From a virus, in IMG/VR virus record IMGVR_UViG_3300042876_000073, positions 1-37,357 of that record: a DNA stretch of 37,357 bases. The stretch is one strand, 5' to 3'. This document shows, in pieces, positions 2,082 through 37,357 of the stretch. Each line of letters starts with the position of its first letter. The stretch's first letter is position 1. The notes below the pieces were generated by a model, which saw nothing but the letters and a program-made list of their open reading frames with translations, made no database searches and had not been told where the DNA came from. Both the position numbers and the translations under genes were made by a program.

Positions 2082-2090
2082 TGGTACAAT
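2082..2090 (+). promoter_or_regulatory. Extended -10 promoter (TGGTACAAT) before RNA leader copy A
   Basis: TG-G-TACAAT is a good extended -10 element, and the -35 region is weak. The predicted start falls about 7 nt downstream, just before the conserved GGCTAG of the leader at 2099. The same spacing (8 nt from -10 to GGCTAG) is seen at copy B on the other strand near 22.9 kb. It would drive the HNH-AP2 gene. Confidence 0.6.
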
Positions 2091-2098
2091 TTTTTTAT

Positions 2099-2157
2099 GG
2101 CTAGCCCGACGGGGCGAAAAGCGGACTGAATCCCCGCCTGCCATGTCCTTAGGATTC
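2099..2157 (+). ncRNA. Structured leader RNA, copy A
   Basis: A 59-nt element that begins at the predicted transcript start. Order: GGCUA; hairpin 1 GCCC-GACG-GGGC (2103-2114); GAAAAGCG; hairpin 2 GAAUCC/GGAUUC (2128-2133 with 2152-2157). The 18-nt loop of hairpin 2 contains CUGCCA and UCCUU. The same order with different stem sequences occurs at 22833-22889 and 29690-29764. The invariant GGC at the 5' end could pair with GCC in the loop as a pseudoknot. The UCCUU in the loop is complementary to a Shine-Dalgarno sequence. No known RNA family is recognised. Confidence 0.75.
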
Positions 2158-2173
2158 TCATGAAAGATTCATC

Positions 2174-2665
2174 ATGACCGATCAAGAACTGTACATCCGC
2201 GCCCACGAGTTTTTCACCTACAAAGACGGTGCTTTGTATTGGAAAATTGACAGAAAACATACGACGTGCAAAGTTGGAATGAGGGCTGGTGGCTTGTCAA
2301 AGTCAAGCATTTATCGCACTGTTTCCATTAACAACAAGCAGCGTTTGGAGCATCGCATCATCTTTTTGATGTGCAACGGCTATTTGCCTGAGATGATCGA
2401 CCACAAAAACGGCGACAAAACCGACAACAGAATTGAAAATCTCAGGGCTTCAGACAAGTATACAAATCAGCAAAATGTTGGCGCTTCAAAGTATGGATGC
2501 GGCTTAAAAGGCGCAAAACGCGACCGATCTCGCAACAAATGGGTGGCATCTATTCGCGTCAAAAAAACAAGGCTTTTCCTTGGTCGCTTTGATACAGCAG
2601 AAGAAGCCCACGAAGCGTACAAAGCCGCCGCAGTCAAATACCACGGCGAGTTTGCAAGGTTTTAA
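2174..2665 (+). CDS. HNH homing endonuclease with AP2 DNA-binding domain (163 aa)
   Basis: Freestanding mobile endonuclease. The HNH core lies at about residues 55-95 ([13 protein letters not shown], then [17 protein letters not shown]), the layout of the HNH_3 type. The C-terminal 50 residues form an AP2-like DNA-binding domain ([17 protein letters not shown]). It is on the plus strand against the surrounding late genes, is visibly AT-rich, and has its own promoter and structured leader, so it looks like a later insertion. The ATG at 2174 overlaps the stop of a five-codon leader reading frame as ATGA. The gene ends convergently in a 4-bp overlap with the gene at 2662-3027. Confidence 0.88.
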
Positions 2666-20018: not shown

Positions 20019-22331
20019 TTAATCGGTAACTTCGATGGCGGCCACTGCTTTCCCGTTTGCGTCACGCTGAATGACCCTCTTTTTGGGGCGTTTCATTTCG
20101 TCAGCGGTCATCATCAAGACCTGAGCCATCTGACCCAGTTGATTGACAGCGTCAGCAATACCCGCGCCGTGGGCGTTGGTGACTTCTTTCAATGTGTCAG
20201 CAATACCGTCTAGCTTGCCTTCGGTGTCCATCTGGATCACGTTCTGGGGCTTTTCGGCTTGCTTGGCTTGCATGGCAGCGATTTGCAGCTTGGTCTCAGC
20301 ATCCAGTTGGGCACGATAAGCCTGGCGCTGGGTTTCAGCGTCTTGCTTCATGCGCTCGATTTCCAGAGCCTGCTGGGCCTTGAATTGCTCAATCTGGGCT
20401 TGTGCTTGCAGTTTGACCTGTTCGGCTTGCTGTGCGGCTTGGAGCTTAATTTGCTCCAGTTGCTGCTGTTGTGCGGCCATTTGCTGCTCTTGCTGCATCT
20501 TGGCCTGCTCCATCTGCTGCTGGGCCTGTGCCTTTAGCATTTCCGGGTTAGGTTGCTCAGGTTTGGGCTGCTTCATCTGCTCGATGGTGCTTTCGAGCGT
20601 GTTTTCCAGCGTTCTGCCGCCTTTGAACGTGCGCACCACAAACATGAGGGCCTCCCCAAGCAACGGCCCCATCTCGGGCGATTGCTGGATGACCGGGAGT
20701 GCATCGCGCATGGCCGACCCAAAAGCGGTCAGGAATTCCGTCCTGCTTTGTTTTTCGACCTGTTCGTCCATCTCGGCCAGGCTATCCGCTGCCACTTCAA
20801 TCCTGAAGTTACGCATCGGCTCGGACTTGAGCAGTTGAATGGCTTGCTCGGCATACATCGCATCGGGAGTTCCCTGAATGCCGGACATAGCGATAAGAGC
20901 TTGAGGGCTGTACAGGTCAGCCATTAGCTGAGCTTTGATCCGCAGCACATCCGAAGTGAACACGGCCACGGCGTGCTGCATATTCTTCAGGCGCATCGAT
21001 GCATATTGCCCTTTGATCTGCTGCGCCGTAGCGGTTTCCGAGGCCATGCTAGAACCGCGGATGATGTCAGACAGGCCGGTCACATCGTAGACCACCTGTT
21101 TGGCTTGCTCACGGGCTGCATAGCACTGATTCAGGGCTTGGATAACCTGATCCAGAGGCAGGAAGTCCACCGTCCCTTTAATGCCGCCCTTTTCAGAGAA
21201 TGCCGCCCATGTGTCCACGGGAATCAGGACGTTATCCACGCCTTCGTTGAGCATTCGCTGAATAGCCGGTTGGCTGGCGTCATAAACACCCACCACCTTG
21301 ATAGCATCAACCAAAAGACCAATACGCTTGGTCAGGTCGTCAATCTCATCGGCTTGGTCTTGATACAGAGCGTAATCAGGAACAGGGACAAGCGTGTCCG
21401 TGGTCTGAGTAGCGTAAAGGGGTTTCGGGCAAGGCCAGAAGTTGTCCAGACCGTAGGGGTCGGATTTGTGGTCGAGCATCTGGTCATAGCCTTCAGCCAC
21501 CCAATAGACGCATTCCGACGATTTGCACCAGATTTCCCAGACCTGAGCCTTTTTCAGCGCATCCATGTCGGATTGGCTGGCCCCTTGGGTTTTCATCTCG
21601 TCCAGACCGATAGGCTCGTGGGTCAGGGGCACTTTTTTGGCCGCATCCTCACCGAATCGGGCTTCGATCTCTGAGCGGGTCATATACACCCGACGGGCAA
21701 CCCATGTCACCTCATCCCAGCACCGAGCCGGGGAACACCGGAAGTCTTCCCAATAGACGTAATCCACCGGGGTGGTTTCGAGCTGCATCTCACCGACGCC
21801 GGTCGGCAGGCTCATTTGGTTTACGGGAGTTTCAGAGGATTCGGGGTCAGCCGTGTATTCTTCCTCGCCCTGCGGCTCAAAGGTCTCGATCTCTTTGGCC
21901 TCAAAGCGAACCCAGACCGTGCCGCGACCAGGTAAGAGGCGATCCAGCACGGCAGCGCGGGTAGCGTTCTCATAATCCCCGTAATGGTCAATCTCGTACT
22001 GAAGCGCACGCTCCAGAATGATCGCAGCTGTACGGCCAACGGGGTCTTGGTCTTTCCACCGACGCTCAACCTGTGCACGGGGTGTTTTCCCGTACAGGGC
22101 AGGCATCATGGTCTGGATATTCGACCAAAGGATGTTGTACCGCTTGTTGCCGTCATAAGACGATGAACGGTCATCCCGGTAGCGTTTAACGATCTTTTTT
22201 CCGCGCTTCGTCCATTTGTCGTCCTCTTTCTTGGCGAGGCGAAGTTCGTTAAGCCAAGAGGCTGCTGATTTGAGGCTTTTGTCTTTGTCCATATGCGGGC
22301 ACTTTTTCAAGTAAATTTCCGATATTTTCAC
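20019..22331 (-). CDS. Portal protein (770 aa)
   Basis: Head-to-tail connector through which DNA enters and leaves. The N-terminal third (YNILWSNIQTMMPALYGKTP, DPVGRTAAIILERALQY) and centre (YDVTGLSDIIRGSSMASETA) follow podovirus portal patterns. Residues about 590-700 are an extreme Gln-rich helix, as in portals with a long C-terminal barrel. The reading frame opens with a GTG at 22331 overlapping the HNH stop (GTGA). An ATG at 22292 (MDKDKSLKS) is an alternative start and may be the original one if the HNH gene was inserted here. It follows terminase and HNH and precedes the spike module. Confidence 0.88.
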   Translation of the reverse strand: MKISEIYLKKCPHMDKDKSLKSAASWLNELRLAKKEDDKWTKRGKKIVKRYRDDRSSSYDGNKRYNILWSNIQTMMPALYGKTPRAQVERRWKDQDPVGRTAAIILERALQYEIDHYGDYENATRAAVLDRLLPGRGTVWVRFEAKEIETFEPQGEEEYTADPESSETPVNQMSLPTGVGEMQLETTPVDYVYWEDFRCSPARCWDEVTWVARRVYMTRSEIEARFGEDAAKKVPLTHEPIGLDEMKTQGASQSDMDALKKAQVWEIWCKSSECVYWVAEGYDQMLDHKSDPYGLDNFWPCPKPLYATQTTDTLVPVPDYALYQDQADEIDDLTKRIGLLVDAIKVVGVYDASQPAIQRMLNEGVDNVLIPVDTWAAFSEKGGIKGTVDFLPLDQVIQALNQCYAAREQAKQVVYDVTGLSDIIRGSSMASETATAQQIKGQYASMRLKNMQHAVAVFTSDVLRIKAQLMADLYSPQALIAMSGIQGTPDAMYAEQAIQLLKSEPMRNFRIEVAADSLAEMDEQVEKQSRTEFLTAFGSAMRDALPVIQQSPEMGPLLGEALMFVVRTFKGGRTLENTLESTIEQMKQPKPEQPNPEMLKAQAQQQMEQAKMQQEQQMAAQQQQLEQIKLQAAQQAEQVKLQAQAQIEQFKAQQALEIERMKQDAETQRQAYRAQLDAETKLQIAAMQAKQAEKPQNVIQMDTEGKLDGIADTLKEVTNAHGAGIADAVNQLGQMAQVLMMTADEMKRPKKRVIQRDANGKAVAAIEVTD

Positions 22332-22813
22332 ATAAATTCTGAAAATTTATTGCTTTTTTTCCGGTTTTCCGCCCTTGTGATGACTTTTAAGTTGAACTCA
22401 TTGTGAAGGCCGCACACAACATGATTGCCATCCTCATCTACGCCTTTGAGTGGGACTATGTGATCTACGTTATAAGGTAGGCCCGTCCACTTTGTGATCG
22501 CAATACGGTTTGCATATATTTTTTCGCAAGCCTCCCTATTAGCCCACGAAACTGCCGCTGGACCCGCACGGCAGGCCGCACTTACGTTTTGTATTGATGG
22601 GGCATTTTTTTTGGAGTACGCAACAATTCTGTTTTGTACGCGAGTTTGTTCTCTATATTTTGCTTGTCGTCTTGCGGCGTTGGCTTTGTCTTGTTCTGTA
22701 AGTTGATTGACACATGTTTTGCATCGACTGCGAATTCCATCCTTCTTTCTAGTATCTTTATGGAATTCAGTAAACAGCTTTACACAGCCGCACTTAGCGC
22801 ATTGTTTTTGCAT
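22328..22813 (-). CDS. HNH homing endonuclease between terminase and portal (161 aa)
   Basis: N-terminal Cys zinc-binding segment (CAKCGCVKLFTEFHKDTRKK, then CKTC) followed by a C-terminal HNH core (YNVDHIVPLKGVDEDG, then HNEFNLKVITRAENRKKSN) with the DHIxPL, N and N-x-x-K positions of the fold. The start at 22813 (MQKQC) has AAGGAA 5-6 nt upstream; the longer frame upstream is the structured leader, not protein. The gene has its own promoter and leader RNA, overlaps the portal start by 4 bp and is AT-rich relative to its neighbours, as expected for a mobile endonuclease. Confidence 0.88.
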   Translation of the reverse strand: MQKQCAKCGCVKLFTEFHKDTRKKDGIRSRCKTCVNQLTEQDKANAARRQAKYREQTRVQNRIVAYSKKNAPSIQNVSAACRAGPAAVSWANREACEKIYANRIAITKWTGLPYNVDHIVPLKGVDEDGNHVVCGLHNEFNLKVITRAENRKKSNKFSEFM

Positions 22814-22832
22814 TTGATTTCCTTGGTCAAAT

Positions 22833-22889
22833 TTCCTATAAAAGTTGTGGCAGCTTGTAGGAATCAAGTTTTCGGGAGCTACCCTAGCC
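22833..22889 (-). ncRNA. Structured leader RNA, copy B
   Basis: A 57-nt element on the minus strand. Order: GGCUA (from 22889); hairpin 1 GGG-UAGCU-CCC; GAAAAC; hairpin 2 UUCCUA/UAGGAA with a 19-nt loop holding CUGCCA and ACUUUUA. It starts 8 nt after a perfect TATAAT. The stem sequences differ from copies A and C but remain paired, which is covariation. It leads the transcript that runs into the HNH and portal genes. Confidence 0.75.
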
Positions 22890-22897
22890 ACACACTA

Positions 22898-22903
22898 ATT
22901 ATA
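22898..22903 (-). promoter_or_regulatory. TATAAT promoter overlapping terminase stop codon
   Basis: A perfect -10 (TATAAT, minus strand) contains the TAA stop codon of the large terminase gene. No good -35 is visible at normal spacing; upstream reads CAAAAAGGTCTGATAGGA. The predicted start is about 7 nt on, at the GGCTAG of leader copy B. It would drive the HNH, portal and downstream structural genes independently of terminase. Confidence 0.6.
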
Positions 22904-24248
22904 TCCTATCAGACCTTTTTGGCATGTCTTTCCATAGTGTATCCAATGGTGCGGTGACGATGCGCCCGTTTGTCACGCCCTTTACTGGGAAGACTGGCGG
23001 CACGTCTTTTGACTCAGTTTTGGCCTCAGACATCTTCTGCGCACCGTACGCAAAAGCATCAGCAGGGTGTGAAGCCCAGTTATGGTTAGGTTCACGGCTA
23101 AATACCCCATTCTCCTCGTTATAGACAAACTCCCACGCTCTCAAGCCGTCCAATCCTGCCTCGCACAAATCAGCGTTAAAAGCGCACTTTTGTATCACCG
23201 TCCTAGCAGCTTCAATCTGGTCTTGCTTTTTAGACTGCGGCACGATTTCACATGACCCAGCCCCGAAAGCGGCCAGAAACTTCTCTAGGGTCGTGTGCTT
23301 GCTCTGGAATGTCTTGGCCCGTGCGTCATGGGGTAGCCATATCTTTGGCGACTTTCCCAAAAGATCGCTAATGCTGTCTTGAATACGTGGTATCCACTCG
23401 TCGGCATCTAAGCCCGAATCGCCTTCATATTTCAGAAGGCTATACCCGCCAGGCACTCGTTGCCAGTACCAGAATGACGCTGTGTCCCTGAAACCCAAGT
23501 CAGCGGACACCCGGATGCCCTCGCCTTCAGGGTCGTAAACCACGCCATTGTGGATGCGGCCATCCCGTTCGGCTTGGTTCACCCACTTGGCAAGGATAGC
23601 GCCCTGAGACGAGCCATAAGCCCCATTCCAGACGTGTTCGGCCTTATCAGGGTCAATGTCAAAGTCCTTGAGCATGTCCTGATACAGCGGGGTCTTCTTA
23701 AACCACGGGTTGTCGTACCAGTTTGCGCGGACAGTCACCATGTCGTCCCGCTGGCCTGATCTGAAAAACTTGTCCACCGCATCGGTTTTGTAGCGCGGGT
23801 TCCAAGCAAATAGAAGCTGGCTTCCTTCCTTACGGAATGTCGGCCTAAGCAGGTCTAGGCTGTGCTGGCTCAGGGTTTGGGCTTCCTCCACCCATGCCAA
23901 ATCAAAACCTTCCAGAGACTTGATGTTGGCAGCGTTGTATGACTGCATACCCTTGAACACAATCAAAGAGCCTCGTGGCCCCCTGATTTCCTGCTCAAGT
24001 ATTTCAAACATGGATTCAAGCCCATGCCCAAGGATTTTGTCCGTAATGAGTTGCTTGACCGAATCCTTGATTGAGTTTTGCACCTCACGAATACAAGCAA
24101 TCCTAGCCCCTGCTATTGCTTTGGCTATGACGTATTCAGCGCAGAAATGAGACTTGCCCGAGCCACGGCCTCCGTACACGCCTAAATAGCGTTTTGGCTC
24201 TAACAGGGGGACGAATACTTCGGGGACTTCAATTCGAAGGCTTGACAA
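22899..24248 (-). CDS. Terminase large subunit (about 449 aa)
   Basis: DNA-packaging motor ATPase-nuclease. Walker A is GGRGSGKS (about residues 26-33) and Walker B is DLAWVEEA (about 116-123). The coupling segment LLFAWNPRYKTDAVDKFF follows, and the nuclease half starts near RVSADLGFRDTASFWYW with acidic residues expected for the RNase H-like fold. No ATG is available: an in-frame TGA lies just upstream. TTG at 24248 has GGAG 7 nt before it, so it is preferred to the TTG at 24254. The gene overlaps the small terminase gene, and its stop codon lies in a promoter. Confidence 0.9.
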   Translation of the reverse strand: MSSLRIEVPEVFVPLLEPKRYLGVYGGRGSGKSHFCAEYVIAKAIAGARIACIREVQNSIKDSVKQLITDKILGHGLESMFEILEQEIRGPRGSLIVFKGMQSYNAANIKSLEGFDLAWVEEAQTLSQHSLDLLRPTFRKEGSQLLFAWNPRYKTDAVDKFFRSGQRDDMVTVRANWYDNPWFKKTPLYQDMLKDFDIDPDKAEHVWNGAYGSSQGAILAKWVNQAERDGRIHNGVVYDPEGEGIRVSADLGFRDTASFWYWQRVPGGYSLLKYEGDSGLDADEWIPRIQDSISDLLGKSPKIWLPHDARAKTFQSKHTTLEKFLAAFGAGSCEIVPQSKKQDQIEAARTVIQKCAFNADLCEAGLDGLRAWEFVYNEENGVFSREPNHNWASHPADAFAYGAQKMSEAKTESKDVPPVFPVKGVTNGRIVTAPLDTLWKDMPKRSDRI

Positions 24249-28475: not shown

Positions 28476-28908
28476 CCTCTCGTGCAAATCGCAAAGAAAC
28501 AGCGTTAACGTGGCCGCCTGCGTTATGGTTGGCAATGATCGCCTTGGCCCATGCCTTGTGATCCCTGCCGGATTTTTGGGCTATCGCTTTTCTTGCCTCG
28601 CCAAGTTTTGCCAATTCTGCTTTCAGCCGCTCGGGGTTAGCCTTTGGCTCTGGCAAACGTGGGACTTCCTTTTCTGGTGCGCGGCGGCAAAGGTTGCGAA
28701 ACTCAATCACGTTCAGGCATCGCTCGGGCAAATTCTCAAGCCCCCAAGCCAATGCCTCTAGGTGGCCCTCAAAACCAGCCAATTCGTGCGCCCAGGCACT
28801 TTTAACGTCATTGATGGGCACATCTGCCCACTGGCGTGTCCAAGCGGCTCCATAGGTCGCAGAAAGGCGCTCAAAAAGACGGTCAATTGCTTTAACGGGC
28901 AAGCTCAT
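28465..28908 (-). CDS. Replication-region protein, P-like (147 aa)
   Basis: Begins MSLPVKAIDRLFERLSATYG, followed by WADVPINDVKSAWAHELAG and LENLPERCLNVIEFRNLCR. This is a pattern of phage proteins coupled to DUF1376 replication proteins, possibly a helicase-loader partner like lambda P by position. The C-terminal 50 residues are basic (AKLGEARKAIAQKSGRD). It overlaps the upstream gene by ATGA. Confidence 0.68.
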   Translation of the reverse strand: MSLPVKAIDRLFERLSATYGAAWTRQWADVPINDVKSAWAHELAGFEGHLEALAWGLENLPERCLNVIEFRNLCRRAPEKEVPRLPEPKANPERLKAELAKLGEARKAIAQKSGRDHKAWAKAIIANHNAGGHVNAVSLRFAREALG

Positions 28909-29678
28909 TTCTCAATCTCCAAAGTGGTCGGGGTTACGTCAATGAAATTGGGCTGGTCAGCTTCGGGCCATTTTCGGCCAGTCATCTCCTCCCAGCGTTT
29001 GCGCCGTGCCAGTTCATCCTGTTGGGCAAAGCTCATCGGCTGGTTTCGCGGCTTTGTGCCTTTGGGCGGCAAAACAGCGGCGATCCATTCAAGCGGCTGC
29101 AAAGGCTTGGCGCGGATGCACTCCCGCAAGGTGTTGACCAAGGCTTCGTCGCCGTGAGCCTTCCTCAGTCCACCAAGGAACGAACGGGCTTGCTTGTCAG
29201 GTGTGCCTGCATTGGTAAGCAAAGGAACCCCGTAACCAAAGATGATTTCGTCTGTCGTAAGCGGCGACCTGTCGCCCGTAGCTTTAGCTACGGAATTAAT
29301 TGGTTCATGGTTACTGGTTACTGGTTCATGGTTACTGGTTGGTTGAACGTCCGTTGAACGGGCGTTGCTCCTCCGTTCGGCAGATGCTTTACCGGCGCGT
29401 GACGCTTGCTCAATTTTTGAGTGGTAGTGAGCAATTTCTTTGTCTGCCCTTGGGTTAACAAAGCCAGCATCGGTGGAAATGAAGAACTCATTTAGCACCG
29501 TGAGAACGTCTTGCTCATGATCGCGCATACCAATCTGGCGAGCAATGTCTCGCTGCTTTATTGGCTGCTCATGAAGATAATAAAAATCCAATAGACGGCG
29601 AAATGCCAAATCTTCCATCAAAGAAAGATGCCTAGTGTGGGACATATAGTCCCCAATGTGGAAACCGTAATAGTGCAT
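28905..29678 (-). CDS. DUF1376-type replication protein (257 aa)
   Basis: Phage replication initiator-like protein. The N-terminal DUF1376 region runs from MHYYGFHIGDYMSHTRHLSL through LEDLAFRRLLDFYYLHEQPI and is a winged-helix-like domain. A low-complexity linker with a tandem SNHEP repeat follows (about 117-130), and the C-terminal half resembles primosome-type domains. The start at 29678 has AGGAAG 6 nt upstream; a TTG 15 nt earlier lacks support. The leader RNA copy C lies immediately upstream and could occlude this ribosome site. Confidence 0.78.
   Translation of the reverse strand: MHYYGFHIGDYMSHTRHLSLMEDLAFRRLLDFYYLHEQPIKQRDIARQIGMRDHEQDVLTVLNEFFISTDAGFVNPRADKEIAHYHSKIEQASRAGKASAERRSNARSTDVQPTSNHEPVTSNHEPINSVAKATGDRSPLTTDEIIFGYGVPLLTNAGTPDKQARSFLGGLRKAHGDEALVNTLRECIRAKPLQPLEWIAAVLPPKGTKPRNQPMSFAQQDELARRKRWEEMTGRKWPEADQPNFIDVTPTTLEIEK
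29301..29340. repeat. Tandem 19-bp repeat in the replication gene linker
   Basis: TGGTTCATGGTTACTGGTT occurs at 29301-29319 and again at 29322-29340 (period 21). In the protein it encodes the repeated SNHEP motif of the linker between the two domains. It keeps the frame, so repeat number could vary by slippage without breaking the gene. Confidence 0.9.
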
Positions 29679-29689
29679 CGCACTTCCTC

Positions 29690-29764
29690 GCAAACCCTCC
29701 AGAAGGAAACCAGCGGCAGGCGGGAGGTTCGCTTTTCGGTCTGCTCATGACTTCAGACCTAGCC
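29690..29764 (-). ncRNA. Structured leader RNA, copy C
   Basis: A 75-nt element on the minus strand. Order: GGCUA (from 29764); hairpin 1 GGUCUG/CAGACC with a 10-nt loop; GAAAA; hairpin 2 GCGAACCUCC paired with GGAGGGUUUGC (one bulge, one G-U) around a 22-nt loop carrying CUGCC and UUUCCUU. It ends just before the ribosome site AGGAAG (29683-29688) of the replication gene. The loop UUUCCUU could pair with that site in an alternative fold. Same order as copies A and B. Confidence 0.78.
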
Positions 29765-29776
29765 GGGTTTCGGATC

Positions 29777-29782
29777 ATTTTA
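29777..29782 (-). promoter_or_regulatory. TAAAAT promoter before leader RNA copy C
   Basis: A TAAAAT box on the minus strand immediately follows the stop codon of the 48-residue gene and precedes GGCTAG by 12 nt. The -35 is not obvious. By analogy with copies A and B it should start the replication-operon transcript at the leader RNA. Confidence 0.45.
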
Positions 29783-37011: not shown

Positions 37012-37357
37012 TTATTTTAAATGCGAACCGTCGGGGTCTAGCGGATCGAGCAAAGGCTCAAAGAATTTCACCACAGCCAGCCTCCAGCGTCCCAAATAGC
37101 TGCCGTCAGATTCACGATTGTGGCGTTTAAGCCGCGCAGTTACGGTGTACTCCCGGGGGAATTCAAGGAGGATAAACGTAACCACAAACCAGTTCACAAT
37201 GACATCCAAAACGATGCCAATAAATAGAGTTGGATAGCCTAAGACTTTTCCTAGTGTGTTCAGCTTACCCATGTCACGAACACGCTTGATGTTCATGACT
37301 GCGGCGTAGAACACGAAAAGCCCGTAGGTTAGGCCTAGGGCGAGCAGGATGGCATTA
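37012..37357 (-). CDS. Small phage membrane protein, main part (start at 132 across the join)
   Basis: A two-helix membrane protein of 116 residues. The first span is near the N-terminus, encoded around the circular junction, and the second is GYPTLFIGIVLDVIVNWFVV. A conserved LLEFPREYTVTARLKRHNRE follows, with a basic helix and the end LLDPLDPDGSHLK. This pattern is familiar from phages of Burkholderiales, without a proven role; a lysis or membrane function fits its place next to the lysis genes. It starts at GTG 132, so complement(37012..37230,1..132). Confidence 0.78.
   Translation of the reverse strand, partial: NAILLALGLTYGLFVFYAAVMNIKRVRDMGKLNTLGKVLGYPTLFIGIVLDVIVNWFVVTFILLEFPREYTVTARLKRHNRESDGSYLGRWRLAVVKFFEPLLDPLDPDGSHLK
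37231..37357. repeat. Terminal direct repeat, right copy
   Basis: Identical to 1-127. See the left copy: the unit genome is 37,230 bp, and the 127-bp length suggests assembly overlap. Confidence 0.95.

Follow-up and report, generated by a model that had tools for sequence, protein, structure and literature searches.

The promoter and structured RNA at the end of the terminase gene, here termed copy B, are best read as belonging to a selfish nuclease cassette, inserted at the terminase stop codon, whose gene they equip with a promoter and a 5' leader; this leader probably serves as a bistable, cis-acting switch of translation. Copy B was compared with two further copies in the window, i.e., the whole stretch of 37,357 nucleotides that was analysed, and with related leaders from phages and bacteria. 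The window ends (1-127 and 37231-37357) are identical over 127 bases, so that the contig probably represents a whole phage genome of 37230 bp, either circular or with terminal redundancy.

Copy B overlaps the terminase stop codon and precedes an HNH-type gene

The gene upstream of copy B encodes a Terminase_3 protein, and the minus-strand sequence around the site reads ...AGG TCT GAT AGG ATA TAA TTAGTG TGTGGCTAGGGTAGCTCCCGAAAACTTGATTCCTACAAGCTGCCACAACTTTTATAGGAAATTTGACCAAGGAAATCAAATG. According to the preliminary description, a TATAAT hexamer includes the terminase stop codon and is followed, 8 nt later, by an RNA motif ahead of the HNH and portal genes. The overlap with the stop codon was borne out (Table 1), and together with the candidate -35 box the promoter reaches 10 of 12 consensus positions. 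A structured RNA is also present downstream, but the gap past the -10 box is about 6 nt and not 8; the lower bound given for the element, 22833, is the exact end of UAGGAA, a pairing partner of the P3 loop. The order of the following genes was likewise as described, with an endonuclease VII/HNH-like gene and then the portal gene. The former gave no match in a Pfam search, and its stop codon overlaps the listed start of the portal gene (GTGA). A terminator was looked for between the two genes and none was found, so that transcripts from copy B may reach the late genes; such read-through may be a by-product. A promoter-like site (TTGACA-17-GACAAT) at 25250-25222 on the minus strand, upstream of small genes preceding the terminase, is a candidate for the main late promoter.

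The number of TATAAT hexamers in the window was dropped as evidence, since four were seen where 7.1 are expected and a single occurrence is not rare. The non-random part is the placement of the hexamer relative to the RNA.

Table 1. Positions of the elements of copy B, its downstream gene and the two other leader copies in the window.
Feature	Position	Strand	Details
Candidate -35 box	22920-22925	minus	ATGCCA, spacer 16; weak, by consensus match only
-10 box	22898-22903	minus	TATAAT; holds terminase stop TAA (22899-22901)
Copy B leader core	22847-22891	minus	P1 5 bp, P2 3 bp, P3 4 bp; junctions UA, GAAAA, CU
P1	22891-22887 with 22851-22847	minus	GUGGC/GCCAC
P2	22884-22882 with 22876-22874	minus	GGG-UAGCU-CCC
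P3	22868-22865 with 22857-22854	minus	CUUG-AUUCCUA-CAAG
P3 loop (putative switch strand)	22858-22864	minus	AUUCCUA
First partner of P3 loop	22833-22838	minus	UAGGAA; pseudoknot, 6 bp; duplex -6.0 kcal/mol
Second, competing partner of P3 loop (Shine-Dalgarno)	22819-22823	minus	AGGAA; 5 bp; duplex -5.4 kcal/mol
P4 hairpin	22812-22832	minus	AUUUGA-CCAAGGAAA-UCAAAU; loop holds Shine-Dalgarno
HNH / endonuclease VII-like gene (cassette cargo)	22328-22813	minus	PHROGs endonuclease VII and HNH families
Copy C	2084-2144	plus	TACAAT (2084-2089) and core 2097-2144; RF02996 39.4 bits, R2 52.1 bits
Copy A	29713-29782	minus	TAAAAT (29782-29777) and core 29766-29713; RF02996 38.1 bits, R2 29.1 bits

Copy B is a diverged relative of int-alpA RNA

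A search of the window with Rfam 15 identified int-alpA RNA (RF02996) at 2097-2144(+) and 29769-29695(-), in both cases above the curated gathering score of 35.8 bits; copy B was not listed in this search, even at E 5. With R2, a covariance model built from 22 training sequences, none of them from the window, copy B scored 39.6 bits (E 7e-9 in 0.95 Mb; copies C and A, E 8e-13 and 2e-5). A structural scan of 950 kb of window and terminase-relative sequence matched the three window copies only, and reversed and shuffled controls gave no matches. Copy B shares the three-helix plan of int-alpA RNA, including its UA, GAAAA and CU junctions, while its P3 (CUUG/CAAG) is non-consensus, and it sits between the terminase and the HNH gene and not at the int-alpA location, from integrase to alpA-type genes. 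Because it remains below the RF02996 gathering score, we regard copy B as a diverged relative of int-alpA RNA and not as an Rfam member.

The minimum free energy fold of copy B corresponds to the family structure, but P1 to P3, taken without the pseudoknot, have an ordinary folding energy (z 0.29), so that the evidence lies in homology, not stability, and covariation was used in place of energy. In P1 to P3, 99.3% of cells were paired and two-sided changes occurred in 12 of 13 pairs, in a training set preselected for pairing but with a search pattern that excluded P1, which makes the pairing of P1 the independent part of this evidence. Sequence comparison thus shows the core to be a three-helix RNA, with P1 enclosing P2 and P3, homologous to int-alpA RNA.

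Copy C precedes an HNH_3/AP2 gene at 2174-2665(+) with an HNH_3 match; leader and gene (2084-2665, plus strand) are adjacent to the tail fibre gene, in antisense orientation relative to the late genes, and occupy the same position in two further loci (L167, L168). Copy A, which has a longer P2, precedes a DUF1376 primosomal-like gene (28905-29678, minus strand) and not an HNH gene. The combination of leader and DUF1376 recurs in L312, L325 and L326, indicating that a replication gene also carries the putative switch.

Occurrence of the leader and position of its promoter

The core pattern matched 37 viral and 53 bacterial or archaeal stretches, and two patterns for the phage form gave 33 and at least 120 further matches. 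RF02996 was present in 40 of 369 sampled genomes of Gammaproteobacteria, the class of Methylomonas sp. LW13 (about 1 in 10), and a similar leader occurred in 199 of 5426 Escherichia coli genomes. In one locus, a RAGATH-18 RNA (RF03064; L344:3144-3205) lies about 2 kb from the int-alpA leader.

Two forms of the leader were distinguished. The prophage form begins shortly past an upstream stop codon, mostly without a -10 box; the upstream gene is an integrase in E. coli, and outside E. coli the upstream stop usually lies 12-30 nt before the C of CUA. The phage form has a promoter of its own. A pattern without any promoter element retrieved 24 non-redundant leaders; in 23 of them, a hexamer with at least five of six TATAAT positions starts 15 or 16 nt upstream of the C of CUA (16 in copy B), and such matches were almost absent at other positions of the same leaders. 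The -10 box of the phage form is thus locked in position: at the usual spacing, transcription is predicted to begin with the first base of P1, which places the predicted start of the copy B transcript at or next to 22891.

In 42 contexts, a long gene precedes the leader on the same strand; in 14 of these, its stop codon and the -10 hexamer overlap, and the stop positions show a clear peak there. The overlap of promoter and terminase stop seen in copy B therefore recurs in the family. At the terminase end, where the window has ATATAATTAG, the closest relatives read ATATGATTAC, suggesting that part of the -10 box of copy B may derive from the former end of the terminase gene.

Two competing targets for the P3 loop

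The leader ends at a start codon, which was found 26-42 nt past P1 in 55 of 57 cases and 26-40 nt past P1 in 22 of 23 cases of a later set, with start codons picked by rule except in annotated records; the RefSeq-annotated starts in two E. coli prophages are located 33 nt past P1. The arms flanking the Shine-Dalgarno sequence pair above permutation (z 11), indicating a small hairpin, P4, that carries the Shine-Dalgarno in its loop. In copy B, the first two bases of the start codon, A and U, form part of the 3' strand of P4. Rfam files int-alpA as an sRNA (Gene; sRNA), whereas these data point to a cis leader. A trans-acting small RNA, for which the Rfam type assignment speaks, is highly improbable, as the motif includes no terminator and a Shine-Dalgarno and start codon belong to the structure in nearly all cases.

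A view with a single pseudoknot partner for the P3 loop was abandoned because many of the best matches fell on the Shine-Dalgarno, and was replaced by one with two partners. The longest Watson-Crick helix of the P3 loop with the stretch from P1 to the Shine-Dalgarno region had a mean of 5.10, compared to 3.18 +/- 0.10 after permutation of the loops, and that with the Shine-Dalgarno region itself a mean of 4.79, compared to 3.39 +/- 0.10. The permutation z-scores were about 19 and 14, respectively, in a set of 82 leaders built from the loci that had prompted the idea of dual pairing. Both helices reached at least 5 bp in 39 of the 82 leaders, where 2.5 were expected and 7 was the maximum in 300 permutations. 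The finding was replicated in 23 further instances, fetched later by covariance-model searches that ignored the downstream region (z 7.7 and 6.4; both helices in 14 of 23, 2.7 expected). Leaders were counted as non-redundant on the basis of k-mer similarity; their relatedness may make the permutation z-scores too high. The negative controls, in which the P3 loop was compared with codons 2-7 and the P2 loop was used, remained flat (z -0.6 to 1.3). The median duplex energies were -6.9 kcal/mol for the first segment and -6.6 kcal/mol for the Shine-Dalgarno, the two differing by more than 2 kcal/mol in one third of the leaders. Taken at the level of sequence, the P3 loop is thus complementary to two mutually exclusive targets, both kept by covariation and one of them the Shine-Dalgarno, as in riboswitch-like elements.

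If the leader is a switch, pairing of the P3 loop with the first segment would leave the Shine-Dalgarno free and allow translation of the nuclease, while its pairing with the Shine-Dalgarno, a contact between the P3 and P4 loops, would turn translation off. This assignment of the ON and OFF states is a guess, and pairing with the Shine-Dalgarno and its display by P4 could instead form one kissing contact that aids initiation. The conserved junction is the likely site at which a signal would set the balance; candidates are a ligand, a protein, the order of folding, or a ribosome terminating at the upstream stop codon. As the leader often lies just past such a stop, a terminating ribosome could, hypothetically, keep P1 from forming.

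The leader might also be a constitutive translation enhancer or mRNA stabiliser with one compact fold in which nothing is switched, the 5'-terminal helix protecting the mRNA, P4 presenting the Shine-Dalgarno and the pairings of the P3 loop only holding the fold together. The start of P1 at the predicted first transcribed base and the display of the Shine-Dalgarno in the P4 loop would agree with this, and no trigger is known. However, more than 100 leaders keep two near-isoenergetic pairings for the same loop, the Shine-Dalgarno being one of the partners, which is hard to explain without an alternative state; we therefore consider a constitutive role unlikely and favour the bistable switch.

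Copy B as a probable part of a mobile nuclease cassette

The preliminary description had left two origins for promoter and leader, a processive antitermination or late-gene control site of the structural operon, or arrival together with the HNH gene, and had proposed to compare relatives lacking this gene. In 80 terminase relatives, some of whose records cover the terminase-portal junction incompletely, neither the leader RNA nor this HNH gene was present at that junction. Terminase and portal overlap in several of these relatives, and in others they abut or are separated by small unrelated frames. The leader is hence missing together with the HNH gene, which argues for a mobile origin, and ownership by the late operon was rejected. 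Arrival with the HNH gene is also in line with the occurrence of the unit before mobile-nuclease genes in many phages, at many sites and in both orientations. With an HNH-type nuclease gene that is absent from the same site in close relatives (0/80), the unit shows two features of a homing endonuclease cassette. A nucleotide search with the terminase-portal region gave only short distant matches to named phages.

The position of the leader at the predicted 5' end of the transcript, its two hairpins and its presence in three operons of one phage would also suit antitermination of the kind known for HK022 put RNA, in which the leader, at the head of the late operon, would bind RNA polymerase and allow read-through of terminators; putL likewise lies just downstream of its promoter (PMC9378689). 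We regard this as very unlikely. Besides being absent from the terminase-portal junction of relatives, the leader shows covariation with the Shine-Dalgarno, and a start codon follows at a fixed short distance, which points to translation of the next gene. In addition, the prophage forms mostly lack a -10 box and are situated between the integrase and the gene that follows. Finally, put is described as two stem-loops (PMC9378689), whereas in the leader both hairpins are enclosed by P1 and followed by a pseudoknot. Put RNA resembles the leader in forming phage RNA hairpins at or near the transcript start, but its effect is on RNA polymerase and extends over kilobases (PMC9378689), and it is not linked to a start codon.

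The genes behind the leader differ between its two forms. In the phage form, the next gene matched HNH_3 in 29 of 52 cases, and matches to HNH, HNH_5, NUMOD4, OrfB/TnpB, DUF1376, T5orf172 and Cas12f1-like_TNB were also found; PHROGs agreed with this assignment. In the set that did not have the phage form, HNH_3 was matched by one of 50 next genes. The association with nucleases is therefore strong only in the phage form, which, as judged from these matches, mostly precedes mobile nucleases of unrelated folds, whereas leaders of the prophage form precede other genes.

Deposited phages include antisense or junction insertions of such cassettes, and Enterobacter phage ENT1 and Vibrio phage 1.211.A are among the cultured phages that carry the leader. 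In a Vibrio phage, the leader lies between the genes for terminase and portal and is followed by a T5orf172 (GIY-YIG-like) protein, and in a siphovirus from bat faeces it precedes a NUMOD4 gene antisense in the tail operon. In a simple open-frame neighbour test, 35 of 55 cassettes were on the same strand as their neighbours on both sides, suggesting that antisense insertion is possible, not usual. In Vibrio phage 242E40-1 (L443:3059-3739), a leader-borne protein without Pfam match (CAH9016304.1) is encoded antisense in the tail operon, and its label as 'putative portal protein' is probably wrong. One relative (L068) carries the leader elsewhere, before a zinc-binding-like gene without Pfam match.

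A tie of the leader to the HNH-B family as such was rejected, since among 47 relatives of this family a clear leader was found only in L121; L120 had two weak copies. The two diverged leaders of L120 (3163-3207 and 3435-3481) are 272 bp apart and each precede a related small protein with a predicted membrane anchor, representing a tandem duplication that includes the leader.

TnpB-like genes (OrfB / Cas12f1-like_TNB) were located behind promoter and leader in two loci (L367:3049-4269(-) and L362:977-2623(-)). Omega RNAs are the RNA partners of IscB or TnpB, and the location of the leader directly upstream of HNH and TnpB-like genes might suggest that it is the RNA partner of the nuclease. This is extremely improbable: the cargo consists mostly of small HNH proteins, the others being GIY-YIG-like or DUF1376 proteins, no guide segment is evident, and the variable loop matches the leader's own mRNA. 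The cis-acting leader of a nuclease cassette thus remains the preferred reading.

Relation to known RNA elements and implications

RNA control of the ribosome binding site is already known for homing endonuclease genes of T4-like phages (I-TevI, segB and Aeh1 mobE; PMC2988022), as is the pseudoknot operator near the 5' end of the T4 gene 32 mRNA, which controls translation (PMC3014915), and the RNA core is present in Rfam. The T4-like systems share with the leader cassettes the selfish phage endonucleases, a ribosome binding site controlled by RNA structure and, in some cases, an own promoter. There, however, a gene-specific hairpin covers the ribosome binding site in read-through transcripts only, and seven free-standing T4 endonucleases are described as promoterless cassettes (PMC2988022). 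In the cassettes reported here, unrelated nucleases share a single conserved RNA family that combines a pseudoknot with a competing anti-Shine-Dalgarno loop. The gene 32 operator likewise is a pseudoknot near the mRNA 5' end, but belongs to a single autoregulated gene and is bound by its own product (PMC3014915), whereas the leader is modular and associated with many genes, and for the leader control of translation is a proposal.

Compared to int-alpA RNA, the phage form has the same P1-P3 architecture, UA, GAAAA and CU junctions and a pseudoknot-compatible loop, and differs in its own promoter and in the mostly nuclease genes downstream. Translational riboswitches with an anti-Shine-Dalgarno pseudoknot combine a conserved junction with mutually exclusive pairing of the Shine-Dalgarno. 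The leader shares both features, although no ligand is known. A limited search of open papers yielded almost nothing on int-alpA, and no account of the dual-partner loop, the link to the start codon or the association with nucleases.

It is conceivable, if somewhat doubtful, that these leaders represent a widespread riboswitch-like class filed as an orphan sRNA, in which a signal acting through the UA/GAAAA/CU junction would toggle the loop between pairing with the true Shine-Dalgarno and pairing with a mimic of it, and which was taken up separately by HNH, NUMOD4, GIY-YIG and TnpB-like nucleases and by prophage integration modules as a portable promoter-plus-switch. Such a module would allow expression of the nuclease in doses at any insertion site.

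The results suggest that the sRNA label of int-alpA is wrong, and this orphan Rfam family would gain a concrete, testable mode of action; since the leader is carried by 40/369 of the gammaproteobacterial and 199/5426 of the E. coli genomes, the putative switch is testable in common laboratory strains. The recurrent overlap of upstream stop codon and -10 box suggests a simple rule by which cassettes may insert at gene ends without harm. Nucleases of unrelated folds share one promoter-leader module, which accounts in general terms for the expression of a selfish gene at whatever site it enters.
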